DNA from: Kappaphycus alvarezii
Taxonomy: Eukaryota; Rhodophyta; Florideophyceae; Gigartinales; Solieriaceae
Assembly: GCA_002205965.3 (NCBI GenBank)
Contig: NADL03000512.1
Span: 1,116,001 to 1,180,000, forward strand
Direction: 5' to 3'
Length of the DNA stretch: 64,000 nucleotides
Positions 1 through 64,000 of the stretch are shown here, one piece after another. Below the pieces are notes generated by a model. The model was not told the origin of the DNA and made no database searches. It was given only the letters and a program-made list of their open reading frames with translations. The position numbers and the translations under genes are program-made. Every line of letters starts with the position of its first letter. Position 1 is the stretch's first letter.

Positions 1-381
1 CTGACCGACTGATGAACCAGGAAGAAAGAACCCGGGACCGTGGACAGCCGAATTTGCCATTTTGAATACAGAGCTGCCTTGACTATCCCCTCCAACTAGT
101 CGATCTCCAGCTCTGCTTTGTCTCTTGCCAGCGTAATCGATAACAGCGGGTACTTGTTGTCTGCTGGGTCAACGGCACCTAATGACCCTAGCAGAATCCC
201 TGCGGCAATCCGTACGTCAGAATCGCTTTCATTGGTAATTAGTTGGATGAGCTCAGAGAGTAGAGATGAATGGAGCACATAAGGCTTTGTCGCTTGTCCA
301 GTGTTCTGTACATAGGCTGTGAGTGCCCTGATCGCAGCCTTCTTGTACGTAGGCTCTGCTGAAGGGGCCTCAAGCACAGAC
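1..381. repeat. Left copy of terminal direct repeat
   Basis: Bases 1-381 recur at 63619-64000 in the same orientation. I compared the two base by base and found one difference: the left copy reads AGCGGGTAC near 147, the right AGCGGCGTAC. The missing C shifts the TOR frame in the left copy only. A window wrapped from one circular sequence would give identical ends, so the two copies were assembled independently. Confidence 0.98.
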
Positions 382-3061
382 ACGATGAGAAGCGGGACCA
401 ACTCGGCCTCGTACTTCCCCAGATCTATACGGCTCATTGTCCCTCCCATTTCTGCAAGCGCCTGTAAGACTGGCAATGCAATAGTTGGTTCATTCGAGCG
501 CTGGGCCTCTTGCAAACGCATCAAAATTGCGTCCATGAGGGAAGCAGTGTATGGCATTATTAGATTCGCCCCATGATGAACAAGAGTGTAAATCAGCTCC
601 GTTGCCTCACGCCGGTCTCGTTCAAAAAACACACCATCGCATCGGAGTATAGTTAACAAGTGTAGAAGGTAGTCGCGCAGTACCGGTAATATTTCAGCCG
701 GATTCTCCTTACTAAGGTCCCCCGCCATTGAGAGCGCCGAGTCCCGCATCATGAGACTCGAGTCATGAAGACAGAGGAATAGCTTGCCAGCATTTCTGGT
801 TGCAAGAGGTAAGGGCGGAACACTGGCTCGTCCAGAGATCGGATTGCTATAAATCTAACATCAGTAGATGGATCAGCCACTGCGATCGCAAGTACTGATC
901 CAGGATTGCGTGAATTCCCCGTCGCAGTTCATTTGGACGTCGACGACCCCCGTATGGACCCGCCCAAAGCTTAGCGGCCGACGCCATAAGTTTTGCTGAC
1001 GCTGCGACAGCCAATGCTCTGACCTTGACGCTATTGTACTCGGCATACCCGATCACAAACTCGGCAGCCAGGGATATGAAATCCTGTACACGCATGTCGG
1101 CAAAGTCAAGGTTGATGATGGCCTTCAAAGCAACGCACGGAGAGTTCTCCTGGTCTCTATCCGTCGACGAGCCTTTCATGTAGTCCAAGGAAGTCCCTTG
1201 ACTTGAAGAAGCCATAAGATCCTTCTTGACTAACGAATCTAAGCTCTTAGCACTGGGTTTTGATGAGAGAATGGAGCTGCTGTCAATTCGATGCAAGTCT
1301 TTAGATATCGGTGCTTCCCGGAAAAACTCTTGAGCACTGGGATCGACTCGTTTGCCTGCAAGGCTGCTCAGTTGTCCTTCATGTTCTTCCGGCAAGAGCT
1401 AGGGCCCATTGGCTGGGATGGGCTCTGCGGAAGACTTAGCACATTGTGTCTGAGGGAGAGAAACGATCTCGTCCTACCAACCACGCCTGCAGAAATCTCA
1501 TTCTCCATGGACCGCAGACTGCCTTGGACTGAAGAAGTTGGACCGTTACCCAAGATGCTATCCTTTCGGCTAGGAAGCCATTTCTTCAAGGTGCAGCTAT
1601 CAAATGCACCAACCTCAGGCGAATCAGACCTGCATATGTGGGCAAATCTTGGCTTATCTCAATGACCGCATCAACCAGGTCATTTGTGAAGTCCGCATTG
1701 AAAACAATTGTCAACATTCCATCCCGTACTGCTTGCTCAAAAACAGGGCTCCCCCTAGATGCCTTCGCCAGATGAGAAATAGTCTTGATTACAGCACGTT
1801 GTGGAAGTGTGAGCTTGTACGGCTCACACAAGGCATCTCTACATACCCCAAGCAAATCAGTCATCATGGGGCTGTGATCGTTCCTTGGCATCTGCTCTGC
1901 GATGACACTGAAAGAAAGCAGAGACAAACCCCTCTCTTCTGGCGGAAAACTCTCATTGCGGATCAGAGCCAGTGTGGACTTGTGTACAGAGTCCAAAAAT
2001 TTGTCTGCAAAGCGCGCCCAATCCAACTGAACCAGAAGCGGCAAAATGTCTGCCACAGCCTTCCGTAGTAATTGCTCGGAACATGTCTGATAGGGCAAAA
2101 CGAGGTCGCACAATTCTTCGGAAAAGGTGCGCATGCATAACCTTGTTTCCTTCGTTCTAAGCAGAGATTGGAGCATGCATAAAGAACCATGAAGTACTGG
2201 GAGTCGCAAAGCATCTGCCTGACGAGAAGAGGCAAAGTTTGGGGTCGATTCATATGAGAGAGAATTACGAATAATAGACATAACATCACGCATTGCTTTC
2301 TGGACATCGTCCTTCTTCGCACGGTTCACAGACGCGGAAAGAATAGCTTGCAAAGCGCGGACACCCTGCTCTCTGACGGCGCTATCACTGTCCCAACAGA
2401 CGTTCCACAACTGCTTGCGAAGCTTGATGCCTTGTCCCTTGAATACCAAGTTTTGAACCTTATCCTGGGCTGCAAGTTCCGATATGACCATAGCGGCCCT
2501 TGCGCGGTCCTTGGACAACTGCGGATTTGGTTTCTCCCTAGCGGGATTTATGATCAAGCTAAGGGCAATATGCAAAGCATGATTGACGGCACGAGCCGAC
2601 ATGGGGCTGTTAGTGCGAGAAAAAGAAGCCACCAACTTTGCAGCTGCTCCAGCAGTAGCGATATCAGTGACTGGAGAACTAAAGAGTGCACGGATAGCAT
2701 TCGACGTGCGCTGGGTGCGCGAGTGAATACTTTCAGTCTCTGTAAACATCAAGGCATTAAATGCCTCGATGGCGCCTAACCTATGACAGGCATTTTCACT
2801 GGTGAGCATGGCCTGAAGACGGAAGGTGAGGGCGGCAACGGCAGGGCCGCGTTCCTGGACATGATCGATGTCGAACGAGGCTCGAAGGTTTGTGGCATCA
2901 ACTTCTGTGACACTATCAACAGCATTGCGAAGCTGGACGGCGACATGTGCTCGGTGCTCAGCAGTCGTGGTGCGACAGAGTTCTTCGACAAGGCCAGAGA
3001 GCTTGCGCTCGTCTGTGTTGGTCGGATCCTCCTCTTGAACGGGGTGAAGAATTCCAATCAT
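1..3061 (-). CDS. TOR: TOR kinase, 5' (N-terminal HEAT-repeat) part
   Basis: This is the N-terminal part of the target-of-rapamycin kinase, the growth-controlling PI3K-related protein kinase that forms the core of TOR complexes. The Met codon at 3061 opens a 491-residue helical, HEAT-like run ending at 1586. Further pieces lie at 1589-1368, 1395-847 and 752-1. The piece from 752 down matches a known mTOR stretch: NLIMPYTASLMDAI corresponds to the RLIRPYMEPILKAL region, and it ends at LGAVDP, the mTOR LGALDP position. The frame changes near 1590, 1390, 890, 815 and 140. None of these shows splice-site logic and the protein sense continues in the next frame, so I read them as single-base indels. 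The gene runs off the left edge. The missing remainder is what lies at 57899-64000 if the ends are joined. Confidence 0.9.
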
Positions 3062-3878
3062 TGGAACAATGAAGGTAGGTAAGCGATAAGCGAGGAAAAA
3101 AGTGGCAAGTACAGCAATGAGTGCGAAGAAGAAGTGGGGTAGGGCGAGTTTAGACAGACGAGGATGAGAGCACTGTGGGCGGCGGACAGGGTGGGCTAAG
3201 TGTTAGGAGGCAAGTGAGTTGGTATGTAGGAGGGCAAATGATTCAAGATTAGGCTTCTGTCGAGTGGAGGAGGAAGGCTGGACGATTATGTCCCGTGATG
3301 CCAGGGAGGGGAGCGTGGAAGGTGATCGCCGGCGGGGCGGATATTTGATATATATACTGCAGATCACGACTGGTAAGGTGTGCGTTCGACTTGCGGCTTT
3401 CGTTTCGCGGAGTTTCTAGGTTGGCCCTGTATTTGGCAGCTACGCGTACGATAGCATAAAAATGGCATTTGTTTGATAGGAAGTGGTGCTCAAGTGACAT
3501 GCACCCAGCACATTCATGTTACAAATTTATTTTTGTACTGTACCGTACCGTACAATACAGTATTACTGTATCTTGCTCTACCGTTCCTCTTTCTTCCAGC
3601 CCAGAAATTAATCTTTCCTTGTCTTTTTTAAAACTTTTCTGCATATTGTGACCCACCCGGGGATGATCGTAACTGCCCCGCTGAACCTGCGAGCCAACCA
3701 CACTTTTTCCGCCCTACACTGTCCTACACCGAACTGTACTGTGCAGTGGGAGCATCCGAAAAATGCCAAGTCGCCAAATCGCCACATTTCAGCCAATGAA
3801 AACGTGACAAATACTCAGGGGAAGTGGCGGATTTTAGTCAGATTTGGATATCCGAAAGGACCCAGGACCCCTTGAAAT
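3062..3878. promoter_or_regulatory. 5' flank of TOR
   Basis: This is non-coding sequence upstream of the TOR start, and presumably holds its promoter (inferred from position). Bases 3534-3572 are a run of TACCGTAC, ACAGTA and TACTGTA words, with more at 3705-3750 (CTACACTG, ACTGTACTGTGCAG). The same word family appears downstream of TOR and inside transposons. The short open frames here have no coding character that I can support. Confidence 0.45.
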
Positions 3879-5169
3879 TTGAAAGGACCCGATCCCTTGG
3901 GGACCCCCTTTCAAATCGCCAGATGTCTTCCAGTTGCTCAAACAAGGCAACAAATCACATTTTTGTGCACTCATCAGATGATCTCTTGGCAAAGGCAAAG
4001 AAGGCGTCGAGCAGTTGTCATGGCGGCATCATTTGCGTCCGTTGAAGAAAGTCTTGTTGTCCTGCGCACGATTTACAAAAAAAGACCGAAAACCTGTCGC
4101 GCCAAACGGTCTAGAACACCAGCAACCTATAGACGCCCAGCTCTCATAAGTCCGGTGCATTCAACTTTATCGACTCCTTGGAATCGTATCTTATCCGGCA
4201 GTGTTGACGACGACCTTCTCGTCTGAACAAAATTCATCGTTCTACACTGCCTTTGTTCGATCAAGAGCGTGCAAGCTATAACTATGGAAATCCGTCTCGA
4301 AACGGCCCCTGGGGCCGACATCTTTTGCTGCCCAGTGTTGATTTGTTGAGAATGGTTCTTTGGTATGTCAAGTGGAAGAGCACAACTTACAGTCTGTCTC
4401 CAATATTCGGTATTAACGACAGCACTGTGGGGGTATGGCTTGATTATGGACTTCAGGTTCTGCGAAAATCGTTGTTAACAAAGAAAACAAATACTTCGAG
4501 ATAAGTGGACTAAATTTCAAGAAATGAAGGCATCTACCGATTTTTTGCGAGAGAACCGCAGAAACGGTTCATTCCTGACTGGCTAGTTTGCAATAACGGA
4601 TGGAGGAAGAATGCCATGCGCTGAGTACCCTGATCCAAATATGTGGAATGCTTACTTTGAGTGCTTCAAGGAAGGCGTGGAGGCTACAAATTTATTCGTT
4701 CTTAACTTCTACGGGGAACTAATCCATGCTGCCGTGGTCTATCCCGGTAGCTGGCATGACCAGGCTGGCTATTGTCTCTTTTCTGTACTACCCCAAGCTT
4801 TCTGATGAGATGACACCGCCAGGCATAGCGATTCTCGGAGATACAGCATTTGTTAATAACTCTAGAACTACGAACAAAAAGATATTTCGCAGTCGAAAGT
4901 CCAATCAGACAAGCGGTATTCCTAATTCTGTTGCTTTAGCATCCATAGATCTTATTCTGCAGTGCGTAATGCCCAGTGAGAGGCAAAGTGCTGAATGGGG
5001 AGCGAGAGCTATTAAGGGCCCTTTCGCCAAGCTTAGAGTGCCTCTTCCAGCAGATGCAGAAAAACGATTATGCTTGCGAACGATCTATTTCCACCTGTTC
5101 AACCGCATAACGCGCTTCGTTGGCTTAAATCAGATTCGCACAACATATCAGAGAACACAAGAACTGTAA
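3879..5169 (+). pseudogene. PIF/Harbinger-type transposase (element 1)
   Basis: This is a DDE-type transposase of the PIF/Harbinger superfamily. A 5' portion (3879-4504) carries a helix-turn-helix-like stretch ending FGINDSTVGVWLDYGL. The catalytic part follows, with FYGELIHAAVVYPGSWHD at about 4700-4765, then GIAILGDTAF at about 4825. The C-terminal signature ERQSAEWGARAIKGPF lies at about 4978-5025 and FVGLNQIRTTY ends the protein at about 5120-5155. Those C-terminal words are typical of fungal and algal DDE_4-type nucleases. The reading is spread over at least three frames, so it is either decayed or affected by sequence errors. It converges on a Myb-like gene on the other strand, the usual two-gene Harbinger plan. 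Terminal inverted repeats were not found with confidence. Confidence 0.8.
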
Positions 5170-5197
5170 AGGTACACTTCCTTTACAAATTCGATTG

Positions 5198-6466
5198 TCA
5201 TGCTTCCTTTCGCTCGTCTTTCTTTGATAGCTCCCGCAGCATCGCTGCCATGTTTTTCAAAAGCACATTGGTCTGATGAAAACTCTTCTGAACTTCCTCT
5301 TTGACCACTTTATTATTCTGTTCCTCACTCAACGTGTCTTCCGACCCGAACGCCCGAGATATCACGCTAAGATGCGCAGTCATTTTTTCCACATTCTCCG
5401 CCAGCACGGCGTCTACCGTGCTCGTCTTTGAGTGTTTAGAAGGTGTTTCAGCCGCCCCAAGAGGGCTCTTGTCTCGCTGAGCACGGATGGGTTGCGATTC
5501 TTCCATCGTTTCCGACCTCTCTCCAGCAACAAGACTTTTCTTCTTCATTACTACCCTCTTCATTCTCATCTGTTCCCAGTACCCCAGTTGCGCATTTGTT
5601 TTGAATTAGACGAGCGATTTTTTTGGCTGGACGAACGGCGGACAGACAGCTTGTATCTCCAGTTTTTTTGCGGGCGTTTGCAATTTTATCAAACTTGTTT
5701 CTGAGGGAATCATGATCACGTTTCGGACGACGTCGGACTGTTTTCCGTAGACCACTTATCGAACTTTGCAGCTACTTCCGACCACATATTGGTCCCTAGT
5801 GTCTATACGACCATGCTCTGTCCTCATATGAGGCACACTTTGTCCTCATATGAGGACAGTTTCCGTTACATTTTGGAAAGGTAAATGTTTTGGAAGGCCG
5901 AAATTTTTACTGGAAAACAGGTTTTTCATGTTAAGTTACAGTACAGTAATTTTTACTGTACGTGCGCCCTCGTTTCTGAAACCCCCCACGATAATACGAA
6001 CTATTTTTCCTTCCAAAACGTAGTCGTTTTCACAACTTCTTGCGAAGAGCGGAAGCTGGTGAGGGAAAATTGCTCTAGGCTTAACCGAGTCAATAATCTT
6101 GAAAAGTTTGTTTTGATCGGCCATCTACACTCATGAACTAATGCGGAGGGATATGAAATGCGCTGAGGTAATAAAGAATTGTATTGAAAAAAAGGGCTAA
6201 AAGTTGTCCTCATATGAGGACAACGGTCCAATAGACACTAGTAGTTCGACCTCGGTCACAAAATCCAATAGAGCATCGAATTCATCATGGAAATAGGTCG
6301 GGGCACCAGCGCGGCTTGTTTTCTTCTTCTGTTTTTTGTTGGCGGTTTCGTTGTTTTGGATGAAAGAAGGGGGAGAGACGGTTTCGGTTGAATTAAGATT
6401 CGCAATTGGATCGGAACAAGTTGCCCTCAGAGTAGTTTCAGATGATTCCGGGGTGGAACCAATCAT
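5198..6466 (-). pseudogene. Myb/SANT-like accessory gene of Harbinger element 1, split by a MITE
   Basis: This is the DNA-binding partner protein that Harbinger transposases need. The N-terminal piece (6466-6241) ends its recognisable part with YFHDEFDALLDFVTEVELL, the first helix of a Myb/SANT-like domain. The domain resumes at about 5796 as GTNMWSEVAAKFDKW, followed by NKFDKIANARKKTGD at about 5695 and a Lys/Glu-rich C-terminal helix (5569-5198) ending LREL SKKDERKEA. The gap is exactly filled by a 440-bp transposon. Removing it together with one TA copy restores ELLGTNMW in frame. A further frame change lies near 5560. The gene converges with the transposase, about 30 bp apart. Confidence 0.75.
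5799..6238. mobile_element. Tc1/mariner-like MITE, 440 bp
   Basis: This is a short non-autonomous DNA transposon. The ends are GTGTCTAT (5799-5806) and ATAGACAC (6231-6238), each flanked by TA (5797-5798 and 6239-6240), the Tc1/mariner target duplication. The inverted similarity continues inward to a near-identical palindrome at each end: TGTCCTCATATGAGGACA at 5841-5858 and 6205-6222, plus a partial extra copy at 5819-5833. An internal palindrome with arms GTACAGTAA and TTACTGTAC lies at 5941-5961. It encodes no protein that I can see. It sits inside the Myb-like gene of Harbinger element 1, so it is younger than that element. Confidence 0.88.
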
Positions 6467-6900
6467 TACGGCCTGACCAGGTCCGGGAGGAGTTTCGTGC
6501 CGGGTGGTTTCTTATTTGATTAAAAAACTTTCGTGAACTGGCATACTGGTGGCCTGATGTCAGTCAACAAAAATGTTTTTATTTCAACCAAATAATACTC
6601 TAGCAATTTGGCGATATGACATTTCTCGGATGCACCAAGTACAGTACGGTGCAATATGTTACTGTGCAGTATTTTTCTTGTTTATTGACCTATTCACCAC
6701 GTATTAATTCTGGAGACGCATCCTACAGAGGCACATGTATTTTTTTATAGTAAACATCGAAAAAGTTTTTTTCAATAATAGAGCTGCCCGAAAAGTACAG
6801 CGAGTCCCGTGTTTTCCCGAATTATAAGTGATATTGTTTTTTTGGCCGTAAAACGCAATTTTTTGCAATCTCACCACCACACAGAATCTGGGGGTTTCGT
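6467..6900. other. Spacer without recognised gene
   Basis: This is AT-rich sequence after the Harbinger Myb-like gene. The right end of that element probably lies here, but I could not pick out its terminal repeat. A TAC/GTA word cluster (AGTACAGTACGGTG, then TTACTGTGCAGT) lies at 6638-6670. I see nothing else. Confidence 0.5.
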
Positions 6901-8112
6901 GAGTTTGTCCAATCTCGATGTCATCAATTCTACGGATGGAATTGAGCCGCTCGGCCATCATCAACACTTTCAGATCCCGCATACCCCAATCCAAACCCCG
7001 GCATTGTCTGGCTCACTGCTGTTTCCGCACTCCTGTTATACCGGGAGAGGCACCCAATGCTCCACACATCTCGGCCGCTACCCCTCCAACCAGCCCGCCG
7101 GGCTTGCCGCGTTATGACGCTCTTGCTACCACTGCTACAGATTCAGCAGGTTTCCGGCTCTGGACACTCCGCTCAGTCACGCGCTGGGTCCTCCTGCTTA
7201 TGTCGCGCCGAGAGTTTCATCACTTGCGCCAGTACAAGGACACATTGTACCGGACGCTGTGCGCTCTCTTGAATTGGATAAGACTGGTACTATTTCCCGG
7301 GGTTTGTCTCTGTTTCCAACCCCACACGTTTCAACGCTTCCTGACGTTCTCATCCCATCTCCAGTGGCGTATACGGAGGTGTTGGAGAAGGATTCCACCT
7401 CAGCTGTGGGCAAACAACGTTAGCGAAAGCAGAAAACACAGATTAACGATTCAGTTAGTGAAAAAAATGTCTCGCCGGCACAGATGCTCTCGTAACTAGG
7501 GTTGAAAGTTCTAATGCACATTTTGCCAAGTAATACATGGTACGTAAGAAGTTGGTGCAGAAGGTAGCAGCTCGGGTCTAGAAGCCCAAATTATAGCAGC
7601 AACAGCAGAACGAGAGCGGGCGGCGACGGATGTGCGCGAGCGCGAGGGATAGCGGGGGAGTCCGAAGGCGCGGGGTAGACAGGCGGGGCCAGGATTCGAG
7701 CCCCGACAATAGAAAATGAAATTAGGTCCACTGGTGGCGGCAGCAGCTTATAAAGTAGCTATAGAGGTTTTCGCGGCCTTATCGGCAGGGGAAAAGGCCT
7801 CAGAACCTGAAGCGCGATTGCGAACGGCGGCGGCGGCTGCAGCAGGAGACCATTATCATGCAGAACGAGCAGCGAGAGTGTGAGCAGATGCGGCAGCGGT
7901 GCGAGAAGGCGCAGGTTTGGCAAGTGCAGCCGGTAATACCGTCGTCAAATGGGCCCGACGGTGGCAGGGGCAGGCCAAGTTGCATAGTAGATCCCGAGCT
8001 CCTGAAGCGCACACCACAGAAACTTTCCGTGGTTGTTCCAGTATTTTCAACGGCAACTCACGACTTCACTGACACAGGTATAGTCCAAAAGAATTATCAA
8101 AAAACACTGTAA
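6901..8112 (+). other. Unidentified coding-like region, Pro-rich then Ala-rich
   Basis: I do not recognise this. Between about 7080 and 7420 one forward frame reads as a Pro/Leu/Ala-rich stretch containing FPALDTPLSHALGPPAYVAP. From about 7580 to 7960 forward frames give Ala/Glu/Arg-rich, coiled-coil-like words such as AATAERERAATDVRERE and AAAAAAGDHYHAERAARV. The last piece (7858-8112) is Gln/Arg-rich and ends at 8112. The sense changes frame several times. It could be a decayed or error-ridden gene of unknown function, an accessory gene of the neighbouring transposons, or simply GC-rich low-complexity DNA. Confidence 0.3.
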
Positions 8113-8560
8113 TTTTCGACTGACTCTAATATTCGACAAAACCTAACTTTATGCTAAGAAAATAGAGGTTAATTTCCCGACATATATCAGGACAAAGAGC
8201 CAAAACTCAGCTGCATACTTAGAGAAAACTTATTCAGTTGCAATTTCAAAGGAAAGAAAATAATCTGACTGTTAATGTCCGTATTGCAATTTTGTCGCAC
8301 AATCATAGGTTGTAGTAACAATAAATTTGTATATCGTTTTCGCTCGCCCTTTTAATCGCACTCATACCGGTCTCATAGCCAATAGAAACAAGGTCGCCCC
8401 AAACGTTCCCAAAATAGTACTTTAGATGGGATAATTATCGTCGGCGATCTCTCCAGCACTTGGGATACCTCCATTGCAGAAGCCTCTTATCCGAAGCAAC
8501 TAGAGTCGCACTCAAATTACTTCCTATACGACGAACTATCTTCTTCAAATGTACTTGATG
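8113..8560. other. AT-rich spacer
   Basis: No gene is recognised. The sequence is AT-rich and marks the step from the GC-rich low-complexity region to the second Harbinger-like element, whose left end should lie here. No convincing terminal inverted repeat was found. Confidence 0.5.
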
Positions 8561-9615
8561 GTACAAGTTCCACAATGATCTCTGTATTGGGCAATGGTTG
8601 CGGTAGAGGAAGACTAAGATACGCCCCGGACTTGGAACTACCTTTGTCGACTTCAAGGAACAAGAAAATTCAGCGCGGTACGTCGTCATGGACTTCTGGC
8701 TGTCTTTCTCCCAATCTGTTGTACAGTTTGAGTCTTTTTCGTCGCCGCTTTCGTGTGCTTCGCGCATTGTTTCTCACTGTCTATTCCGATCTTTTCAATG
8801 CTTACCCAGAAATATGGGTACCAATACCAAACACATTCGGGCAATGTGGATTCCTGTCGAAGATCAAGATATTGGTTGCACTTCGTGTTCTCGGCAGCGA
8901 AATTCCAAACAACGATATGGAAGATTCTTGTCGCATGAGCGCCAGAACAGTGCGGCAGAGGGTCAAGGCATTTTGCAAGTGCATGGTATCACTTTACGGC
9001 CCTATGCATCTCAACTAAAGACCCTCAAAAGCGGATATGTTCAGAATTGGAACAAAAAATGCCAAAAATGGGTTCCATGGGTGTGTTGGATCGATTTATG
9101 CTCGTATGATCCTCTGTAAGAACTTCCCACACGTGTTGAAGTGGCCGTGAAACAACAGAAAGGACGGCAAGAATTTGACGATATCCCTGGAAGCTTGGTG
9201 AGATCATGAAATCTACGCTTGGCACTAGTTTGCAGGCAGTACAGAAACGAACAAAGACCTCACGCTCGTGGACAACTCACTTATTTTCAATAACATCTTT
9301 AATGGATATTTTCACTTTAGACTTTTCCGCGTATAGATTAGTAAGTATCAACAGTGTGCGGGACATTGCCTATTTTCCGGTGTAAAGGATATATCCAATC
9401 CGGTTGATTTTCGGGAAGAAGATCTCTCATCTCGCCGTCGAGGGAGAAGGTGCCTAGAAAAACTACATGAGGTATTGAAGAAGGACATAGAAAGGTGTTT
9501 TGGCGTTCTACAAGGGTTTTTTGGGGTTTGCACGAAGACTCGAGGTTATGGTACGCAAAAGACATCGCCGTTCAAAGTCAGGCATATGTTATCCTGCATT
9601 AAATGATGAAACAAT
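8561..9615 (+). pseudogene. Plant-type PIF/Harbinger transposase (element 2)
   Basis: This is a DDE transposase of the Harbinger subfamily whose domain is usually called plant transposon protein. It differs from the one at 3.9-5.2 kb. Around 8735-8770 it reads LFRRRFRVLRALFLTVYSDL, the typical FRRRFRM.R.LF helix. It continues with CGFLSKIKILVALRVLGSEI and a rms-like SCRMSARTVRQRVKAF. A decayed catalytic stretch follows at about 9170-9320 (EIYAWH, then TNKDLTLVDNSLIF, the IWHAFFG...NDI..L..SP equivalent). The C-terminal signature is KKDIERCFGVLQGFFGV at about 9478-9530. It is scattered over several frames. The convergent NAM-like gene at 10.5-11.3 kb is its likely partner. Confidence 0.72.
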
Positions 9616-9970
9616 GCAGCAGAATAGGTAATTCAGAGGATAAATGGAGGAGGAGGGAGAGTCTTTGATATCGTCGGGTAACTCATGGATGACGGACGGA
9701 TGAATGCTCAAGGGAAAGAGATGAAAAGAAGGAGAGGCTAAACTATAAATTTTGAACAAAAACGAACGCATAGAATCTTGCATAGTAAGAAATTCACAGC
9801 TGACATCTGAGTCTGTTTTTTCTCTCTTTGAAATGAGATTATCAAAATCCCAAGAATTCATGGAGAGGAATAGTTGTACTGTAGAATATAAAGGGATCCT
9901 TCTGGTGGTAGAAATTGGGGGAGAGATCCACACTGTGTGTGCCGCGCTTTTTTCAAGATCTGCTTGACAA
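9616..9970 (+). other. Tail of Harbinger element 2, unclear
   Basis: Sequence between the transposase C-terminus and the LINE fragment. A 71-residue forward frame (9752-9967) may be the degenerate end of the transposase or a chance frame. Nothing in it is diagnostic. Confidence 0.25.
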
Positions 9971-9974
9971 GCAA

Positions 9975-10260
9975 CCAAAGAAGCCTCCCGAAACCGAGAC
10001 TACGGGCAGTGCTACCCAAAGCGCTTCTTCTTCCTCCGAGTGTTCAGTGATGATGACGTTCTTAGAGCTGTCAGGGGCTTAAAAAAGGATGATATCTCCG
10101 TTCTTATCTTGACAGGCGGATTCTTAGAAGCTCCTACGAAAGTTGTGAAAATTTTGCTGGAAGGAAATCTCCCGCCTCCCTTGCCCAGGCCGTGTTTTTG
10201 CGGAAGCAAACGAAGGAGACAGCCAAGACGCTATCTCGTTGCTGCTGGGCGAAGAGATTG
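9975..10260 (+). mobile_element. LINE fragment, reverse transcriptase 5' part
   Basis: This is a short remnant related to the LINE at 53.4-57.0 kb. FSDDDVLRAVRGLKKDD here matches FTEEDVLRAVRGFKPGS there, and GFLEAPTKVVKILLEGN matches GFLPALTRVVNILAAGK. About 30 residues between these two blocks are missing relative to the longer copy. The upstream KPPETETTGS stretch parallels the linker before the reverse transcriptase. It lies between the two genes of Harbinger element 2 and is clearly diverged, so it belongs to an older or different subfamily. Confidence 0.7.
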
Positions 10261-10531
10261 CTGGAGCGTCCGGGCCGTCAAGATCGGGTAGGGTTGAGAG
10301 CATACGGATCAGCTTGGTGAGAGACCAAGGGATGTGAAGGCGGCGTGTCTCATGGCGCCCGAGCTGCTTCGGGAAGGCAACTGGGAACGCGCCAGAGGGA
10401 ATAAAAATATTTCAGCGAAACGCCCCTTTGGGTTTCTAGGCCACGTTACCTCCTTAGAATTATATCTCTTCGAGAAATTTTGGAGGGCTGAGGGGCAAAT
10501 ATCGGGGAGCCCGCAACTAAACATAATGTGT

Positions 10532-11308
10532 CTAGTTCCATTTTTTTACAAACCTTAAACTAGGTATACGAGCAGATATTTGTTCATTGTTTTCTTCAAT
10601 TACTTTCTTCCGAAAGTGCTGCCTGCTCCAGAGCTGTTTCGCCCTTTTTTGCTTCTCCGTTCGCTGGTTGACCACTCTGCCTCGCACGAAAGCGAGACAA
10701 GACCGGCTAGAAAACCTCCTGGTACAGTGCTTACCCCTTCGGTAGCACCCAAGGAGGTTCATGCCCTCCTTTCTCTGTGCATTGAACTTCGCGTCGTCGA
10801 TGTTTCCTGGAAGTTTTTTTTTGACCTTGCCATTTGCGCCATCATTTACTTAATAAAGCACTCCAGCTTCGTCCTCTTAACAGCATTTTTATCCTGGGAC
10901 TTCATTTGTTTGCACCAGCTGTCGTTTTCTACCCCCTTTCTCCTGCTCTCTGTCCTAGATGACGCTCGGGCCGTCGCCTTTGTCATCGGTTCCAGAATGA
11001 ACAATGTCGCTTTTGGTTGAATACTCAGAATTAAGCCCCTGAGACTAGATCGAAGCAGCCAGTCTAAGGTTCGTCGCCCCCTGGAACTTTGGCTGCCCAC
11101 TCAAGCACTCTGAGGCCTTCCTGAATATGAAAGGAGAGGAAAGATCTTTCTTCCTGTTCTTGTCTTTCTTGTCGGCTCGTTTCTGATAGAGTTCCATAGT
11201 GAAGGCCTCCATGTCTTCATCATTTCCTCCAGGTATGCGAGCTGCTTTCGCCTTGTTTTGACATCTGAGCCAAATCTGAACTTTTGCGGCCATGTGGAAC
11301 CACTTCAT
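10532..11308 (-). pseudogene. NAM-like/Myb-like accessory gene of Harbinger element 2
   Basis: The minus-strand reading from 11308 contains GGNDEDMEAFTMELYQKRAD and then SPFIFRKASECLSGQPKF. These match the pattern of the no-apical-meristem-like partner proteins of plant-type Harbinger transposons (SG.NDED...A...Y followed by .PF.F..CW..L...PKF). The basic stretches that follow (11100-10846 and 10762-10532) are Lys/Arg-rich and fit a coiled C-terminal tail, in changed frames. Its convergent orientation to the transposase at 8.6-9.6 kb supports pairing. The assignment rests on motif pattern alone. Confidence 0.5.
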
Positions 11309-15620: not shown

Positions 15621-15627
15621 CTTTTCT

Positions 15628-52669: not shown

Positions 52670-52689
52670 TCAGTCGAAACCTTACCGGC

Positions 52690-53432: not shown

Positions 53433-56400
53433 TGTGTGTGTACGTATTGTCACCATGACCGCTCGTAATTGCGAAGATGCTGCTTCTGCCAACCTAGCAG
53501 AGCACACCCCAATACAGGCAGGCGGCTCCAAATGGACCTCTTACCGCCCCATGGCTGGCCCGACGTTGAGATGGCCGCTACCCCTCCCCGGGCGCTGTCC
53601 CCTCTGCCCGCAGCAAAAACCAAAGATCCAAACAGTGGCGCAGCTTCTGGCTCATCTACGCACCGCACACGCGAGGACTCAAATCTTGGGAAGCCAAGCG
53701 CCCCGAATTCGCGACCCTAAATAGAGAACTAGCGAAGATCGGCTACTGGTACTGCGGCTGCCACAACCAATACGTCCGCTCCAAGCTTTCGGGTCCGAGC
53801 GATACCGGGCTCTACACGTTTTCCTACTCCCAGTGCCCAAATGCTCAGTGCGCACGGCACCAGTACTCTACAAACCTCTCCACGAGACCCAATTACGGCA
53901 AGAAGTGCCACAACAGCACACCACGCCTCGTGTGTCGCGCCCGGATCTTCCCCTCGATGGCCTACCAGAGGAACATACAGCCGCAGTTGTCCAACTGCAA
54001 GACGTCCCCGCCCCATCGGCACCAAACCCGAATCCCCGCATGCCCCGTAACTCTGCCGGACAACCCCAACCCCCCGGAACTCCCCGTGCAGGCGTTACCC
54101 TCCATGGCACAAATTTGCACCACCTACACCCCCGTCATGGCACATATACCCACGAAGTTCCGCGGCTGCTTGGCCGAAACATACGCACAGGTCATGAATG
54201 ACGTCGTCCATGCTTGCCAGTCTGGAGGCCCGGGCGCTTCCCACGCTTTCACAAAATTATTCTGTTCCCCGTCGTCATGCTCGCCACAATGTCCCACCCG
54301 ACTCCGACCTACCCGGGTACCAACATCAGTCTCTCGCGGACAAAATGAGAGAGCGGATAGCACTGTGGAACCAAGGACAGTTTCAAGAACTGTGGGAGGC
54401 AGCTACCCAACGGGCCGCTGATTCACTGACAGCCCCAACTGCCAACGAGCAGCATCAGTTGAATGTTAGACGGGCCTAAAGACTGGCCAGGAGGGGCATT
54501 TGGTAGGGCAGCCCAAGCCCTAGGCTCGCTAGGTGTCCTCCCACCAACCCCCGGCGTCATTCAGGCCCTGCGCGACAAGCATCCCCAGACACCGCCCCAA
54601 AGGGGACGAGGGATTCTTCTCCGGGAGAAACAAACAGGCCGTTCCGCAACTTCACGGAAGAGGACGTCCTGAGAGCTGTCAGAGGTTTCAAACCCGGTTC
54701 CTCCGCCGGAGGTTCCGGCCCCAGGCCATCCCATTTGGTTGAACTGCTGCGAGCCCCTTCCTCAATTGGACGGTGTGGATTCCTACCTGCACTCACAAGG
54801 GTGGTGAACATACTTGCCGCAGGTAAAGCCTCGGCAGATCTGGCTCCGTGGATAGCCGGCGCGCCCCTTACGCCGCTGGCTAAAAAGGACAACACACCCC
54901 GACCAATCGGTGTAGGCGATACGCTACGTAGACTGGTAGGTAGCTGCGTCATGAAGCGGGCTACCTCGAAGGCAGCTGAGTACCTTCAGCCCCTCCAAAT
55001 GGGAATAGCCACTCGAGCTGGAACGGACACAGTTGTGCACGGCGTTCGACGGGTTGTTCAAAAGTTCCGGAACGGACTCCGATACGGCATGCTGACTGTG
55101 GACATGAGAAACGTGTTTAACCTGTGCAGTCGTGCTGCTTTCTGGGATGCTGTCGGGACCCTCCTCCCAGAATTACTACAGAGGGTCTCGTACTGCTATG
55201 CTCTCGGAGCCTGCTTACCCGTGGAATGGTCGCACACCATCAGAAGCATGCAAGGGACGCAGCAAGGGGACAACCTCGGCGGCCTGCTCTCGACTTGGTT
55301 CTGCACCCGTTTTACTCAAGATCCAAGAACTTTTAAGTTCCCAAGACGAGGAAGACGAACTAATGGGCCACATGCTGCTGCAACTCTGATACCATGATGA
55401 CGGGTATATCATCGCACGCCACGATCAACTCCGCGCGCAGGTGAAATCCTCTCGTCTCTTGACGCTACCAGCAGGGGTCTGCACCTCTCTTTGCCAAAAT
55501 GCAAGTTCTGGTGGCCGACGGCCCCTCCAGAGTCCGTGCAGCGCCTCTACCCGAATGTCTCCTCAAACAAGAGTGTAGTGAGGGCACACTCGTCCTCAAC
55601 GCTCCAATCGGCACAGAGACGTTCACCAAGAGAACTTTCTCTGCGCACGTGAAGTCCCTCGAACCGTTTCTTGAGGCCATCATTGACCTCGAGGATACGC
55701 AAATAGCGTTCCAGCTGCTCCGAAATTGCTTCGGAGTCTGCAAACTCGGCTATTTACTACGCGTAGTCCCGACGTCGTCCACCGCGAGGGCGCTGCCATG
55801 TGTGACGATATGATAGAGCGCTGCGTCCGCACACTGACAGGGGGTGTCCTGGATTCAGAGGTCTTCAGAGAACTTCAATTTCCGGTGAAATCACTGGATG
55901 CGAAGCGGCCCTCCCTTCGGATCGGATTCACTTCCGCCAAAACCATCGCCGCGGCCGCCTTCCTCGCCTCCAGCGCGGCCACCAACAAGTTGTGCAAAGT
56001 CGTCCTTCCCGCTCCTATCAGGAGCCTCACCACCTACAACGACGCTTTGGACGCCCACCGGAATTGGTCACTTGCCTGTCTGCAGTCAAGGATTCTTCCA
56101 TTTAGTGCAGTTTGCTCACGCAATACACCATCGCAAAAGAAACTAACAGACGCAATCCATGCAGCAGTGCAAGAAAGCATTTCCCCCGGTGATCAAAGAA
56201 GGCAGGCATTCCGCGCCTCCATGGCCCTCCAGGGCGCCGAGGAATGGGTGTACTGCGCCCCTTGCCCGGCAAGACAAGTTTTGACCCCCGCGAATTCGCG
56301 GTGTGGTTCCAATACTTCTGTCAAGTCCCGCTGTTCCCTGCGGACGTCCCGTGCCCGAGACGAAACTGCCCGAAACCCTCGACTGTTTTGGGGATCACCT

Positions 56401-57001
56401 CCTTCACTGCAGACTTGGTGGGCACAGAAATCGACGCATGACCATTAAGTGGCCCTCATTGCGCAAGACCCTGCAGAAAGCGGCCCGCCACCCCGCCGTC
56501 GAACCGCGGGACGGGGTCCATCGCACGAGGCCAGACATCCGGCGATGGGAAGCAGTGGAGGTGCGGACTTCTTTGACGTGACCTTCGTCAACCCGCTGGC
56601 GCCCTCCCACAGGAGGCCCAAACGTTTAATCCGCTCACCTCGCTCAATGCGGCCGCCTCCGCGAAGCATAGAAGATATGATTCTTTTATTGCAACCTCCG
56701 CGAGAAGTAGGCTCGTGCCTATTCCTATACCTACTCTCGGAGGGTGGCACCCGGACGCTTATAGGTGCTAACCGACGTCGCGCGGAACGTGGCCGTTAGG
56801 GCGATGGAGGCTACGGTTAAGGTCCGTGCGGTACTTATAGACACGCTGCCGCGGCCGTAATGTCCAACGCAGCCTGTCTGCTGGGGGGCCTCGAGGCGGC
56901 TTTCTAGGGTAATTTCAGAGGTATTACTGGGCACCTGTAGGATATTCCGGGCCACAAACCACCATATTTTGCAAATATTAAATCATCCCACATTTTCCCC
57001 C
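53433..57001 (+). mobile_element. LINE (non-LTR retrotransposon) with C2H2 finger and C-terminal nuclease-like domain
   Basis: This is a copy of about 3.6 kb. The N-terminus carries a C2H2 finger, CPLCPQQK...LLAHLRTAH (53599-53673). A Cys/His-rich YWYCGCHNQYVRS follows at about 53745, and then a long Pro-rich linker. The linker before the RT reads MRERIALWNQGQFQELWEA (about 54345). The reverse transcriptase begins at FTEEDVLRAVRGF (about 54655) and continues through PLTPLAKKDNTPRPIGVGDT and VDMRNVFN (about 55100) to YHDDGYI (about 55390). The C-terminus has FGDHLLHCRLGGH (about 56388), RPDIR and DFFDVTFVNPLAPSH (about 56566), and then the 3' non-coding end. There is no apurinic-type endonuclease. 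Several frame changes are present. The 5' limit is inferred from the junction with the inverted copy. Confidence 0.85.
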
Positions 57002-57898
57002 GTACCACACCACTGGACGTCCTAGAACATTGCACCCAACTAAGCGGTTGGTCCTATTACAGAACCTATTACAGTACTGTATGCCAACCCTCGGGAACGC
57101 GGTCCTATACGCAAGTATGCACCTCAGACCTCCCCTTTTCTATACTGTAATTGTCACTAGGACTTTCTGTCAGAAAGGACCGTTTGGGAAATCGAGCTCG
57201 ACGGCGAAGTGCGCGGGATCTTTGGAGCGTTTCGACCGGCGATGAAGAGGGGCTTCGTCTTTGCGAATTTCGGATCGTGGATGATGGAAAAGTGGGGCGA
57301 GTCTTGCTTTCCTCGCCGGGTTCGTAGGAGCGAGGTAGGGGCTTGTCACCGGGAGCGGCGTAGAAACTTTACCCCTAATCCTCCAAAAATTTGTATTCCA
57401 AATGCATTTGCCATTTTCGCTACCTAAAAGAACCGGAACAACCTTTGATCTCCAATCTCTTCGATCATCCAAAGTTGCCACCAAGTTCGATGACCACCAT
57501 TTAGTCTTGTTGTGGGGTACATGCAGTACTGTACTGTAATTCGGTATAGCCTTACAGTTACAAATACAGTTGTTGGGTTGTTACAATAAGCTAATTTTCT
57601 GCTCTAAGCTTGCCTAGTACCCTGCACCCGTTTTCCGAGTTAATTCTATTCCTGTACAGTACGTGTACATTGCTATCTAGTTTCCTCCAATTAAATTCCA
57701 GTTAGGTCTTTTGTACACTGCAAAGTCCGCAATACTGTCGGGTACTTATTCCCAGTAACTTTCTTTCTGCCAACCGGTTCTCGATCATCGCGCCATCGCG
57801 CCTGACGCGCGGTGGCGCGGTGGCGCAGATCAGTGCCTCCTCGGTGCGGATTCGCCTTGTCCCTTCGCCCTCAACGCAGACCCACCATCTCCGAGGCC
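57002..57898. promoter_or_regulatory. Intergenic region between LINE and TOR 3' end
   Basis: No gene is recognised; frames of about 70-100 residues on both strands at 57170-57484 carry no known motif. It is notable for TAC/GTA palindromes: TACAGTACTGTA (57070-57081), GCAGTACTGTACTGTAA (57523-57539) and TGTACAGTACGTGTACA (57653-57669). A GC-rich repeat (GGTGGCGCGGTGGCGC) lies near 57812. It presumably contains the TOR 3' UTR and polyadenylation region. Confidence 0.4.
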
Positions 57899-60800
57899 TC
57901 ACCAAAATGCACACCAACCCATGAACAGCGCACAGAGGTTCTCTACACTACGTGCCTCTTTGATGAGTAACATTACTTGCTGCTCGACCGAGATCGGCTG
58001 CGATCCAAAGTCCGTTCCACGCAATTTGTCCTCGAAACGATTCAGGGCCAGTTGTGCTTTGGCATTCGCAGCACTTGATATCCACGGTTGGTTCGGATCC
58101 TCGTCCTGCATTACTCGCATTTGCATAAGTCGCTCTCTTGCGCTTGGTGTCTGAAGGTTGACAGGATCCACCATGTCATCGTCATCTGCTACACCATCAT
58201 CTTGACTGGGAGTGGGTATGCCACCGCATCACTTTGCTCCGTCGCTGCTGCTGAATACCGTTCTTGCCTATTTAACCTTCGAACAGAAGCCGCCAAGCTA
58301 CCCGTTTCTTGAATACTCCGAGCTAGTTCTCGCAACCCAGGGTCCTCGAAATTTGCCAGTGATGATGCCAGACCCAAACTGCCTCGGGCTTGTCTTCTCC
58401 GTGCGGCGATCCACGGCCTCCTCTTCCTTCAACCGAGCCATCTCATCTGCAGTAACTAGTTTCCATCGGATAAGCGGATCATACACAAACACTTCCATCA
58501 TCGCCATTAACGACTCTCTGGACGCCTGCTGTCGTAGCACTTCCATGGTAGCTTCAGCTGTTTGTTGAAAGTAGCCCTGCACGCCGCACGGTTCTAAAGC
58601 CTGTACAAGCATTCTCGTTAACCTGAAGGGCACCTTCTCAGGATATTTCTCCCGTTTTGTAGCAACTTCGAAGCAGTCACCAAAGTCTATGTGCAGCACT
58701 TTTCCAGTTAGACGCTCAATCATAATGTTTGAAGGGTGGCGATCGCCCAGCCCCAACAAGTACCCGGCCATGGAAGTTGTGCTAGAGATCTGGCGTATGT
58801 GCTCCGCTTGTCCAACCAAAGCTCAGAGTTTCTGCTACGCAGCCAAAGGACCTTGGCTATGTCTTGACTCACAGTGTTCTCCAAATCAATTCAAACAAAT
58901 CAACCTTGTGTAAGAGCGGAAGACGGTCTGGGTCCGGCGCAATATTCAGCATGACTTTGTGCTCTACGTTAGTCATGATTGAACGGGCATCACGATATTC
59001 TTTCACAAGGGCATGCATTGTATCACAATCTGGCACCCAACCAATGAGACCGGCATTGGCAGAGAGGGCCACAACAGAGAACGTTTTCAATTCTACGCCG
59101 TTCAAAAGGTCCTTTCTGCTACCCTTCCCGAAGAGCCGGTTAATAAGGTTAAACACTTGCATGACCCTTTCATCCTGCCGCAGATCTTCATGGCCTTTCA
59201 AAAGAAATCGATATTGCTGACCATCGCTGCCAAGAATGGACATTTTGCGAGGCCGCTGCTTGCTTTGCACAACTTGCATCTGGCCCCGAAAGCGTATATG
59301 CCCACTGCCTTTCTGCTTTGCAAAGGATCGTAAGTCCCGGGTACTGCGAGTAGCAAGTTTGAGCAGTTGCTAAGTCGATCCGAAACACAACCCAAGTCAA
59401 TGACTGTTGTTAATTGCTGCAACCTCTGAATCTTTTTAAAGGCTGATTGGTACACTTGCCAAGCGTCGCTGAGGTTTTTGCAATTGTGTGACACTCTGAC
59501 CGGTCTCATAGCCAGCACGAAACTTTCGGAGGTTGCCGCCAGCAATCGCAAGCTCAGCTCCAAACTCCCTGGCGAAATTTCTTTCACAGGACGTCTCTGG
59601 GCCCCTCTCTAGCTCTTCGTGCAATGGCAGGAGAATATCTATCATTCCCTCAACGTTCTTCTCGACAAAGTAGCACTTCGAGGCTTCCTCAAGTCGTTCA
59701 TGCCATTGCTCGACCCACAAAATCGCTGAGCGCACGAGCTCCGTCGCCACCATTTCTGACTGTTCAACAATTTCAACATGGTGTCGCCGCAGGTCATGCA
59801 AAATGGCAGCTGCCGCTTCTCCACTATCTGCACTGTGTGACGTTCTTGGTCCTCGGGCGACTGTCAATGGATACACGGCAACTTGCGGATGTTCTTGTCC
59901 GATTCGTGTAAGAAGTTCCCTAACTCCTCTTTGCACATTTGCGATGGGGAATGCAGGCGAGCGATTATCTGAGGGACAACTTCTAGCCACATCGCAATGT
60001 TGGTCACTCGAAAGTATTCATCGAAGAATGCGTGAAGACCAGCATGCCCGCCATAGTTGAACCAAAGAGTTAGCACTTTCAACGAATCCTGCAGCCTCGT
60101 TTTCCTTCAAGATCAATCGATTTGAAGTATCCCTTGATGGCTTGGACCAAGTAAGCTCTTCCCCTGTGGCCGGGCCTTATTTCACTCAAGAGATGAGCGT
60201 CATGCCACCCTTTTCGGCTTGGATCTTTGTTCATTTTCACCACTGACGCCTCTGCCTCAACGAGCTTTTCAAACCGAACGGCATTATACTCGCCCCAATA
60301 ATGCCATGCCTTGTACCAATCTGGCCGAATGATGGTAGCGCGCTCCGCATATACGAGAGCGTCCTCTGAAGTGAGAAGCATCTCACCTGGGACTTACTCC
60401 GCGTCACTGAAGTCTAGCAACTTGTGGCCCCATTTCGATAGTTTTGAGAAGACTTCCCCAGCTAACGTGCTGTTGTCCTCGCCGAAATTCTCGATGACCC
60501 GTGGATTCTCCCAAGAAAATTCGCTACCCCCCTCCGGAAGGTAATCGTTGCAACAGGCACTCAAGGCATTGTACGCCGGTTTCTTCTGATCAGAGCCCAC
60601 AAGTGTTTGATACACGCAAACCTTACTTCTAAGTCATCAATGTTCATTACTGATTCGGCGTCCCATCTATGTGAAAGATGTGATCCAGCGCCCCCCGGAG
60701 ACATATGCGTGTGGCTGCTCGCAGAGCGCCGTTCCTGACATGAAACGATGAGCATTCGCAAGGCTTCACTGGCAAGAGGCAAGCGATGTGTTTTCCTGCA

Positions 60801-63800
60801 CATGCCAGCAAATTCAAGCCACTGGTCTTTGTTCTCGACTGGCTTCATCACAAGAGAGCGTATCATGAGAAGCTTGTACCATGTAAACCAGTCTTGCTTA
60901 CAACGTTTCAGTCTGTCCGTCCAGATGCTTTGGAGTCGTTGCTTGCCGAACACCGCTGCGTCCCTTGGCCGCATGCGAAGGTATTGAATTATCTCTTCAA
61001 GTTCCACCAGTACCTGCGCGCTAACTACTTCGTTGTACGCGCTGGGGTAACCTTCTGAGACCCGAGCTGTAAGGTCAAGATCAAGCTTCCTCCGGGCTTC
61101 CCGCAGCTGAACCTCCGCAGCATCCAAATATTTGCGGTTATCTTTTCCGCGCTTAATGAAAACCAGTGTGCTGTAGAACGACCTCTCGTAGGTTTCCGGA
61201 GGAATTAGCCCGACCCACTCCTCAAACTCACCCCACAGCTCCAAGTCGAAGGCAACGGAGGCGCCTTTCCCTTCTAATGCAAGCTGACATAACGCTTCAT
61301 TCTCGCCGATTAACGCTTCGCGTGCCCTCCGCAGAATGGAATTCATGTCTCTCCACTTCCCAGCTCATTGAGACAACGAAGTTTGCCTAGAAGATGATTC
61401 CAACTTTTCTTGTCTCTGTAAAGCGCTTCACCCGCAGTAAGGCCAGTTGGAATTGCAGGATTATCTCCGATTATGTACATCTCTGTCTGGTCATACACCT
61501 CGAGCGCATCGTCCCACCTCTGCAGTCTTTCAAGCCACTCTTCTTGTAACACTTCTCCGTCCTTTCCCGGTATTCCCTTAAGGTCCCCACAGCCGACTCA
61601 TTCTGGCCAAGTTTCTCATAGATGGCAATGAGGCCGTTCTTCCCACATACGTCCTCTCTCAAGAGCTCTGGCATCTCAAGGTGTTGCCCGTAATCATGCT
61701 CACGGTACCTAATTGCCTTGGCATAAGCTCCGCATTTACAGGCAGTAGACGCCAGCCTTTCCGTTCGCACCGGAAGAGGTTTCTCATCATGGTCCATAAA
61801 TTCAAACAAATTGAGAAGGCCTTGGAGGACTGTGAGGGTATAGAGGTGGACGTGAGCGCCATCTCTAGAGAATCACATATCTTTGTACGAGTGTAGTCAC
61901 TTAGTTGGGCCTTCCAGCACGAAAGAAACGCTGGATTCAGCAACTGCCGAATAAAGGGCGGATATGAGTCAGAAATACGACCACAGGCGCGGAAGGCTGG
62001 CGATCCAGATTGCTCGAACATAGTGGCCCCGATGTTCTCATACCACACATTCCAATCCTCTGCAGTGAAATTTTGGCTAACCTCCCACCTTTTTACAAGG
62101 CCTCCTCCAGGACATGCGCACGTGGATGAGTGGTCCTTGTCCCAGACGGAAGAGAGGGGCGTCCTTCAAATGCGCCGCCCCTGGCAGAAGACCTAGGGCT
62201 GATGTCGAGCTCAAGCTCCTCCGTTCCTTCAATCTCGCCTGTAACATTTTCGGAATCAGAAATGAACTGCAAGTTTCTCTCTGATGGAGCGGTGCCATCG
62301 TCAAGCAATTCTCGAACCACGTCAGGGTCTTTTTTGATGAGAAGCAACTTCAATCTGCGGTAAATCCCCGTATTGATGCGTCCAACGTTGCTCGCCTTCA
62401 ACGCTTTTGTAACCACCGGTACAAACAAGTCAAACTCTGTTCCAGTTCTCTTGCCAAGTTCGGTCAGTGCAGAGGCTGCAAGGGCGGACAACCTCTCAAT
62501 ACCGATTACTTCCTGTTTGTATCCTCCAGGTCTTCTGCCCTCGACATTCCCGCTGTTTCTAGTGATGTACCGCTCGTGTGCCCCGGCGAGCACAACTAGG
62601 AGAGGATGAACTACGCTGGAGATAGCCTCCACAGCATGAATATCCTTCAGCAATATGATGAGAGTACTTATCGCCTGCTCCCGGACAACGTGCAACCGAC
62701 TGCTCGTTATCACTCGTGTTATTCCGATTAAGACTACTTTTCGGTATTCATCTACGAGTGGTCCAAACGATTCCAAAGTTCTTAATACTGCTGTGGAAAT
62801 CACGCCACTCGCGGTTGAGTCTTTGGCAAGGGCAGACAGTAGCGGCGGTAAGACTGTAGGAATAATCGGTTTGAATTCGTCCCCAATGGCTGTCCTCAGC
62901 CTGGAGAGCAGAGTGCAAGAGCTCGCTATACAAGCGACAGAGTTCTTGGCGGTACTTAGGTAAGTCCACACGAGAAGAACAGTATCAAACGTGTACGGCA
63001 TGTAGTCATAACCCGCAGTTGCTATTATGTCTGCCAGACGTTGCATAATGTGCTGCTGAATCTGAGTGAAAGCTGAGCCTAATCTCGGATCTCTCGAAGA
63101 AGAGTGGTGAAGAAGCCAAAGGATTCGCGGGACGACGGCATGCAAAAAATTAACACATTTTGAGCCGACCGACTTCAAGATGCTCACAATTGCTTGACAC
63201 GCCTCTCGATGATGTACACGAAGTCGCGGATTCCTGATAATTTTGTGCAAAATGTCAAGAGCGGCGGATGGAAAGAAATCAGGACTGGCAGTAAAGGGAT
63301 GCTCGAGTAGGGCCATTAAAGAATTGTTAGGCATTTCGTCTTCGGCCCAACAGGGATTGTACCCTACCATCCGTTGGGAGACTCTTGATCCCCAAGAGCA
63401 AATTGGGAGAGGGACACATCATACTCTCCTTTCGAAGGCATTGCGTTCCTGACGCGGCGACTTGATATCGTATCGGGCGAATTTCCAGACTTTGGCGATT
63501 GGTCGTGATGCGAGGCACCACTTATCGTGCTTGTCGCGGCTTCTCTAGTTTGCTGCGGCTGCCCGTACTGCAGATTAGGGATCGATTTTCGAGTGGAACC
63601 TCTGCTGTTGCGGCCGTGCTGACCGACTGATGAACCAGGAAGAAAGAACCCGGGACCGTGGACAGCCGAATTTGCCATTTTGAATACAGAGCTGCCTTGA
63701 CTATCCCCTCCAACTAGTCGATCTCCAGCTCTGCTTTGTCTCTTGCCAGCGTAATCGATAACAGCGGCGTACTTGTTGTCTGCTGGGTCAACGGCACCTA

Positions 63801-64000
63801 ATGACCCTAGCAGAATCCCTGCGGCAATCCGTACGTCAGAATCGCTTTCATTGGTAATTAGTTGGATGAGCTCAGAGAGTAGAGATGAATGGAGCACATA
63901 AGGCTTTGTCGCTTGTCCAGTGTTCTGTACATAGGCTGTGAGTGCCCTGATCGCAGCCTTCTTGTACGTAGGCTCTGCTGAAGGGGCCTCAAGCACAGAC
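57899..64000 (-). CDS. TOR: TOR kinase, central and C-terminal part
   Basis: This is the rest of the TOR kinase. HEAT-type repeats run from 64000 to about 62093. The FAT region (about 62050-59870) includes [25 protein letters not shown] and [13 protein letters not shown] lies at about 59747-59470 ([20 protein letters not shown]). The kinase domain (59279-58380) carries [13 protein letters not shown], the catalytic loop GLGDRHPSN (58753-58727) and HIDFGDCFE (58693-58667). FATC ends in [12 protein letters not shown] with the stop at 57899; most TORs have Pro for that Ala. Catalytic Asp, Asn and the DFG Asp are intact. Frame changes lie near 63365, 62085, 61810, 61550, 61365, 60600, 60090, 59950, 59510, 59290, 58893, 58778, 58360 and 58210. 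There is also an in-frame TAA at 60396-60394. Each break is crossed by good TOR homology, so I infer sequence errors in a functional gene; a young pseudogene is the alternative. Confidence 0.95.
63619..64000. repeat. Right copy of terminal direct repeat
   Basis: This matches 1-381 apart from one extra C, and it keeps the TOR frame open ([20 protein letters not shown]) where the left copy runs into a stop. Joining the two copies makes TOR continuous from 3061 down through the junction to 57899. Confidence 0.98.

Follow-up and report, generated by a model that had tools for sequence, protein, structure and literature searches.

Why do the two ends of this stretch of DNA carry the same sequence? 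The window, by which we mean the whole stretch of 64,000 bp that was analysed, lies in the interior of a contig of 2,391,138 bp (C508:1116001-1180000; positions within the window are prefixed with w). A BLASTN comparison aligned w1-381 with w63619-64000 on the same strand, with 381 of 382 positions identical and a single gap near w149/150 (699 bits, E 0.0). The first-pass annotation had reported these near-identical direct ends and their one indel, an observation that was confirmed, and chance is excluded as the source of the match. The ends are part of a homology of 13,152 bp with 99.05% identity (C508:1109708-1122849 versus 1173360-1186456) that is shared by two copies of a TOR gene, here called C and D. 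They match because C and D are spaced 63,618 bp apart, slightly less than the 64,000 bp of the window, so that the tile clips both copies alike and leaves 382 bp in common. The window edges themselves are irrelevant to the match: two TOR copies were cut by an arbitrary 64-kb tile. The earlier suggestion that the joined ends give one complete TOR gene of about 8.8 kb was right about size, copy C measuring 8,799 bp from N-terminal ATG to stop (C508:1110263-1119061, minus strand) and copy D 8,787 bp (C508:1173899-1182685, minus strand). It was wrong about there being one gene, given that each of the two copies crosses one window edge and the joined ends are therefore a chimera of two genes. Features of the window are collected in Table 1.

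Table 1. Features of the 64,000-bp window (w, window coordinates; C508, parent contig)
Feature	Position	Strand	Remarks
TOR copy C, 5' (N-terminal) part	w1..3061	-	Gene runs on left of the window to C508:1110263
Left copy of end repeat, within TOR copy C	w1..381	+	BLASTN and parent-contig coordinates
C-D homology block (99.05%), copy C portion	w1..6849	.	Sequence comparison
Right flank of copy C	w6850..15041	.	Piecewise 82-89% to right flank of D, C508:1191721-1212433
Spacer segment	w32931..41465	.	91.4% to segment right of copy B, C508:1086945-1095497
Spacer segment, repeats before next unit	w41466..51782	.	96% to C508:1216574-1226917; pieces 86-91% to 1095573-1104656
Metallophosphoesterase-like gene fragment, convergent with TOR	w51783..52686	+	Beside all five C508 TOR copies and both C484 copies
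4.67-kb insertion with presumed RT-like ORF	w52687..57359	+	In copy D; missing at corresponding place of copy C
C-D homology block (99.05%), copy D portion	w57360..64000	.	Sequence comparison
TOR copy D, 3' part (mTOR_dom, FAT, FRB, kinase, FATC end)	w57899..64000	-	Runs on rightward to C508:1182685
Right copy of end repeat, within TOR copy D	w63619..64000	+	BLASTN and parent-contig coordinates

The search for TOR copies covered the eukaryote assembly to which the window belongs, of about 336 Mb (336,021,096 bp in 884 contigs). With w1-2000 as query, seven places were recovered at 95-100% identity (C508:1081409, 1116001, 1179619 and 1265097; C759:1297307; C484:564537 and 502340). The 3' part of the gene (w58301-60300) found nine, including C508:1068267, 1076084, 1110666, 1174301 and 1259809, with C759:1291972, C484:569873 and 507671, and 130 bp on C446 making up the rest. 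Five TOR copies (A to E, from left to right) thus stand on C508 within about 200 kb, all in the same orientation, and three further copies lie outside this contig, one on C759 (F) and two on C484 (G and H). Copy A is truncated, keeping about 5.4 kb of the 3' end and missing about 3.4 kb of the 5' part of the gene, and copy E lacks about 740 bp of its 5' end. F, G and H cease to be homologous to the C508 copies 146-188 bp upstream of the ATG of B. The piece on C446 (C446:755625-755756) is a scrap of the TOR 3' end with 97% identity; its match begins with the first bases of the query and may extend further.

Catalytic-loop GDRHPSN and DFG motifs are features of TOR kinases, members of the PIKK family. 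GDRHPSN is present in all eight copies and the searched DFG stretch in seven of them, E being the exception. The ORF of copy F holds the full set of TOR domains in order (FAT, 1.3e-50; FRB, 3.9e-28; kinase, 4.7e-65; FATC, 1.3e-13), and the ORFs of copy D that fall in the window hold FAT and mTOR_dom. FRB was detected at seven TOR loci and not in E, and the assembly search found no other FRB loci. The closest solved proteins are TOR2 (867.9 bits) and mTOR (about 863), against 213 for SMG1, 163 for ATR and 151 for ATM; yeast TOR2 and human mTOR score about equally. By all three criteria of identity, the genes of the array are, at sequence level, TOR kinases of the PIKK family.

The first-pass annotation had offered three origins for the matching ends: an extrachromosomal circle, a contig that the assembler closed on itself, and a tandem duplication of about 63.6 kb. 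A circle of 63,618 bp whose start was assembled again at its end would account for the direct repeat at both window ends, but the window lies well inside the 2.39-Mb contig, and when the sequence is compared with itself at a shift of 63.6 kb, identity of at least 95% in register ends already 6.46 kb beyond the right edge (C508:1180001-1186456) and 6.29 kb beyond the left one (C508:1109708-1116000). We found neither a closed contig nor a register repeat sustained past both ends. Farther right, the neighbourhoods of C and D align as collinear pieces of 86.8%, 89.0%, 86.3% and 82.5% identity, insertions splitting the D side, and only one more collinear segment reaches 96% (w41466-51783, at a shift of about 4.5 kb). 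With the two junction neighbourhoods 82-89% alike or unrelated, and the remaining TOR copies at different spacings, a circle is hardly credible. The interior position and the short register repeat equally remove the closed contig from consideration. The earlier reading was to fall if the parent contig carried unrelated flanks; inspected beyond both edges, the flanks outside the shared block differ, which is largely the outcome that it had named against itself.

The third origin fared better. A tandem segmental duplication is recognised by linked copies that point the same way and keep common neighbours, and the five linked TOR copies bear out duplication in tandem as the kind of event. Its form was different: the spacings between corresponding points are uneven (A-B about 7.8, B-C 34.6, C-D 63.6, D-E 85.5 and G-H 62.2 kb), the near-identical block spans about 13 kb, and the spacers, which are of greater age, are partly collinear and packed with transposable elements. 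A regular unit of 63.6 kb was consequently rejected, on the differing spacings and the short reach of identity in register. The single indel, presented originally as proof that the ends are not one wrapped sequence, is weak evidence. The residual gap rate predicts 1.02 single-base gaps per 382 bp, and because of this expectation the indel carries no weight on topology; gap rates between recent copies likewise led us to reject it as proof of two molecules. More broadly, when two nearly identical sequences in a long-read assembly differ by one base, this is little evidence that they are separate molecules.

The quality of the consensus bears on how many of these copies are real. Counts of substitutions and gaps are 10 and 26 for A-B, 8 and 26 for A-C (over 11 kb), 20 and 21 for B-C, 33 and 34 for B-D, 63 and 45 for C-D and 884 and 72 for C-E, and A and C show no substitution across 5.5 kb of the eight-copy alignment. 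Between recent copies (A-B, A-C, B-C and B-D) gaps match or exceed substitutions in number, and they are mostly of one base; of these single-base gaps, between 11 of 24 and 16 of 23 lie within runs of three or more. We take most of these gaps to be consensus errors. Haplotypes or paths of the repeat graph might then have been strung into C508, some of A to D being one gene assembled repeatedly; the few substitutions among A, B and C, equalled or exceeded by single-base gaps, which are a sign of poor repeat consensus, speak for such an artefact. Against it, the flanks of C and D are homologous but diverged (82-89%) with distinct junctions, an insertion with a near-duplicated target occurs in D only, the spacers of B and C are 86-91% alike, and E is 10-11% different. 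Differences of this sort in flanks, insertion and copies cannot arise from one locus assembled twice, and we regard the artefact as very unlikely. The near-identical A, B and C could nonetheless be partly an assembly duplication, and the 7.8-kb junction between A and B at C508:1073292 is the most doubtful of the junctions.

The units of B, C and D are collinear and consist of a metallophosphoesterase-like fragment, TOR, a spacer and a Copia-bearing segment, with the B unit lacking about 27 kb that is present in the C unit between C508:1121541 and 1148931. The copy of the spacer near C508:1095.8 kb codes for a reverse transcriptase of the Copia type (Pfam RVT_2, 1.7e-32). The neighbour of TOR is similar to a putative dimetal phosphatase of solved structure (4e-7), and Pfam Metallophos remained below the family cut-off in this fragment. 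Lone metallophosphoesterase-like sequences occur at C508:1241697 and C484:515814, and old versions (70-72%) at C508:1027576 and C759:1283117. In the D unit, the insertion sits between the metallophosphoesterase-like fragment and TOR, has a target of about 11 bp near-duplicated at its ends, and contains inner inverted repeats of 740 bp (w52686-53425 and w56270-57002, 91.8%).

Neighbouring TOR genes are 99.05-99.66% identical, as opposed to 82-96% for the collinear spacers. Note that the divergence of spacers is itself uneven, since the C and D units share 96% identity in the segment next to D. Such homogenised tracts with sharp edges, in or beside diverged homology, recur within copies E and H. 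In the eight-copy alignment, identity between E and the main sequence type is 84-88% through most of columns 4000-8500 and 97-99% in columns 2000-3500. H is 84-91% identical to the main type in columns 4000-7500, 97-99% in columns 2000-3500 and mostly 94-98% after column 7500, and matches E at 90-96% in columns 4000-7500. Differences between E and each of B, C, D, F and G amount to 0.5-1.6% in columns 2000-3500 versus 14.6-14.8% in columns 4000-7500 (Fisher p 7e-56 to 1e-70), and those between H and B, F and G to 1.3-2.9% versus about 13.1-13.2% (Fisher p 3e-34 to 2e-50); the step in identity between H and E is also significant (Fisher p 6e-19), whereas control pairs show none (B-F, p 0.83; F-G, p 0.67). 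Trees from four sections of the alignment conflict on the placement of E and H. Over the 5' end, the G-H pair shows 99.1% identity, against 88-90% for either of them with B or C. In the unconverted part, dS between E or H and the remaining copies is about 0.38-0.40. Comparison of the sequences shows E and H to be mosaics of two diverged TOR types.

Patterns such as these could in principle result from the recent duplicative insertion of TOR blocks of 13-17 kb into an older repeat cluster, with no conversion of resident copies, and the block edges are indeed sharp (1104655/1062269, 1121541/1086953 and 1122849/1186456). Older collinear homology continues outside the block to the right of C and D, however, so that copies stood there already, and whole-block insertion leaves the internal high-identity tracts of E and H unexplained. 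We consider block insertion unlikely. An old, transposon-rich tandem segmental duplication would instead have produced an array of TOR units whose copies exchange sequence by ectopic gene conversion and unequal crossing over; this concerted evolution would have kept most TOR copies alike and may also have changed copy number. The window very probably lies in such a tandem segmental-duplication array, in which unequal exchange or gene conversion homogenises TOR, several copies are functional, and E is a pseudogene.

Function was judged from the coding state of the copies. Values of dN/dS between contigs are low (C-F 0.097, B-F and D-F 0.108, B-G 0.180 and F-G 0.235), and within C508 they are 0.147 for C-D, 0.263 for B-D and 0.690 for B-C, the last of these resting on five changes; A and C do not differ in the 1,695 codons compared. 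H compared with B, F and G gives 0.23-0.26 and E compared with the others 0.23-0.24, while for the E-H pair the ratio is 0.37 overall, rising to 0.67 when only the unconverted part is taken. In the compared codons, in-frame stops are absent from A, B, C, D, F, G and H and number nine in E. These ratios suggest that several copies still encode a functional TOR kinase, and the nine stops that copy E is a pseudogene. An uninterrupted reading frame from end to end was found in no TOR copy of the assembly. Most of the broken frames are probably, though not provably, consensus errors: A and C, free of substitutions between themselves in the codons compared, show 17 and 7 indels relative to F. Frameshifts were not accepted as proof of pseudogenes for A to D and F to H, which have no in-frame stop in the codons compared, the indel counts of A and C differing without any substitution there. 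One result goes against reading the gaps as consensus errors, namely a length near alignment column 3490 that throws the second half of TOR out of frame with the first and is common to six of the seven covering copies (B to E, G and H), with only F reading through. This shared length fits a systematic consensus error, a small unrecognised intron and a real frameshift alike.

The relationship of the three TOR-bearing contigs can be approached through their neighbours. A single-copy stretch of 3 kb with a Med1-like gene occurs in two places only, C508:1284500 and C484:450295 (98%), and the order of lone metallophosphoesterase fragment, E or H, and Med1 agrees between the two contigs. An old metallophosphoesterase precedes F on C759, as one does A on C508. 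These arrangements suggest that C484 is probably the other haplotype and that C759 may be. The other haplotype, C484 and possibly C759, would then carry at least three TOR copies versus five. The 10 kb between E and Med1, however, match C484 at only 78-85% among the matches listed, below what a simple allele would give, and on the left side of C508 the query for allelism is repetitive. The spacer query has its best match among those listed on C759, at 83-84% and inverted. Raptor_N is found at one locus of the whole assembly, C677:225474; it follows that not everything in the assembly is phased and that C484 and C759 might instead be segmental duplicates, and also that TOR was amplified on its own account.

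TOR is mostly a single-copy or two-copy gene in the genomes covered by three papers (PMC2997006, PMC6001611, PMC10414808), with which the array is compared here. Among fungi, Saccharomyces cerevisiae, Schizosaccharomyces pombe, Batrachochytrium dendrobatidis and Pleurotus ostreatus have TOR duplications (PMC2997006). As here, the extra paralogs come from segmental duplication and keep the complete domain order, but there are two paralogs per genome, those of B. dendrobatidis and S. pombe are described without shared flanking synteny, whereas the array has five linked copies, all oriented alike, that share a neighbour and include mosaic sequence. In the Fusarium oxysporum complex, 7 of 12 strains carry one or two extra TOR copies on accessory chromosomes (PMC6001611), some truncated as in the array, one of them by a transposon insertion; these are lineage-specific paralogs whose proteins are about 96% identical to that of the core copy, whereas the copies of the array are in tandem and homogenised to 99% of DNA. 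The Y-linked amplicon of the seed beetle Callosobruchus maculatus, with three consecutive TOR regions on one haplotype versus one on another (PMC10414808), appears closest in form and shares with our locus surrounding transposable elements, 5'-truncated copies and perhaps a polymorphism in the number of linked TOR copies. The beetle amplicon is described as sex-linked, with an intact autosomal TOR kept and all Y copies lacking exons 1-5, while the array copies are the only FRB loci found in our search and several are complete.

What sets the array apart from these cases is how many linked and largely complete copies it has, together with the mosaic evidence for conversion. A limited literature search returned no published TOR array of this kind, from which we do not claim that none exists. 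We raise tentatively, as a rather doubtful proposal, that this is a TOR copy-number locus, with several intact tandem TOR genes whose number varies between haplotypes and which, homogenised by conversion, exchange tracts with the older type seen in E and H. If true, TOR dosage or variants would be tuned by recombination. A five-copy array under purifying selection and conversion would allow one to ask how cells tolerate extra copies of a master growth kinase.

Other sequences of the window and its surroundings gave fewer clues. An Rfam search of the 64-kb window returned 0 matches, and window ORFs at 8.4, 12.2, 16.3, 31.6, 32.6 and 33.1 kb matched no Pfam family. The ORF of the insertion in D, which had no Pfam, NCBIfam or PDB match, is called RT-like from motifs that we take to be those of such proteins. 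A further insertion to the right of copy D (C508:1187663-1191700) has ORFs of 282, 584 and 1,020 codons; two stretches of these matched no Pfam family, and by their motifs they presumably resemble a tyrosine-recombinase retroelement. The Copia-bearing spacer contains a direct repeat of 197 bp (w40707-40903 and w46656-46850, 87%, 5.9 kb apart), which may be what is left of terminal repeats. Finally, an element of about 450 bp at w5793-6243 recurs in at least 30 further copies of about 97-99% identity, on many contigs and both strands and sometimes in inverted pairs, and on this pattern is classed as a recently active short mobile element.
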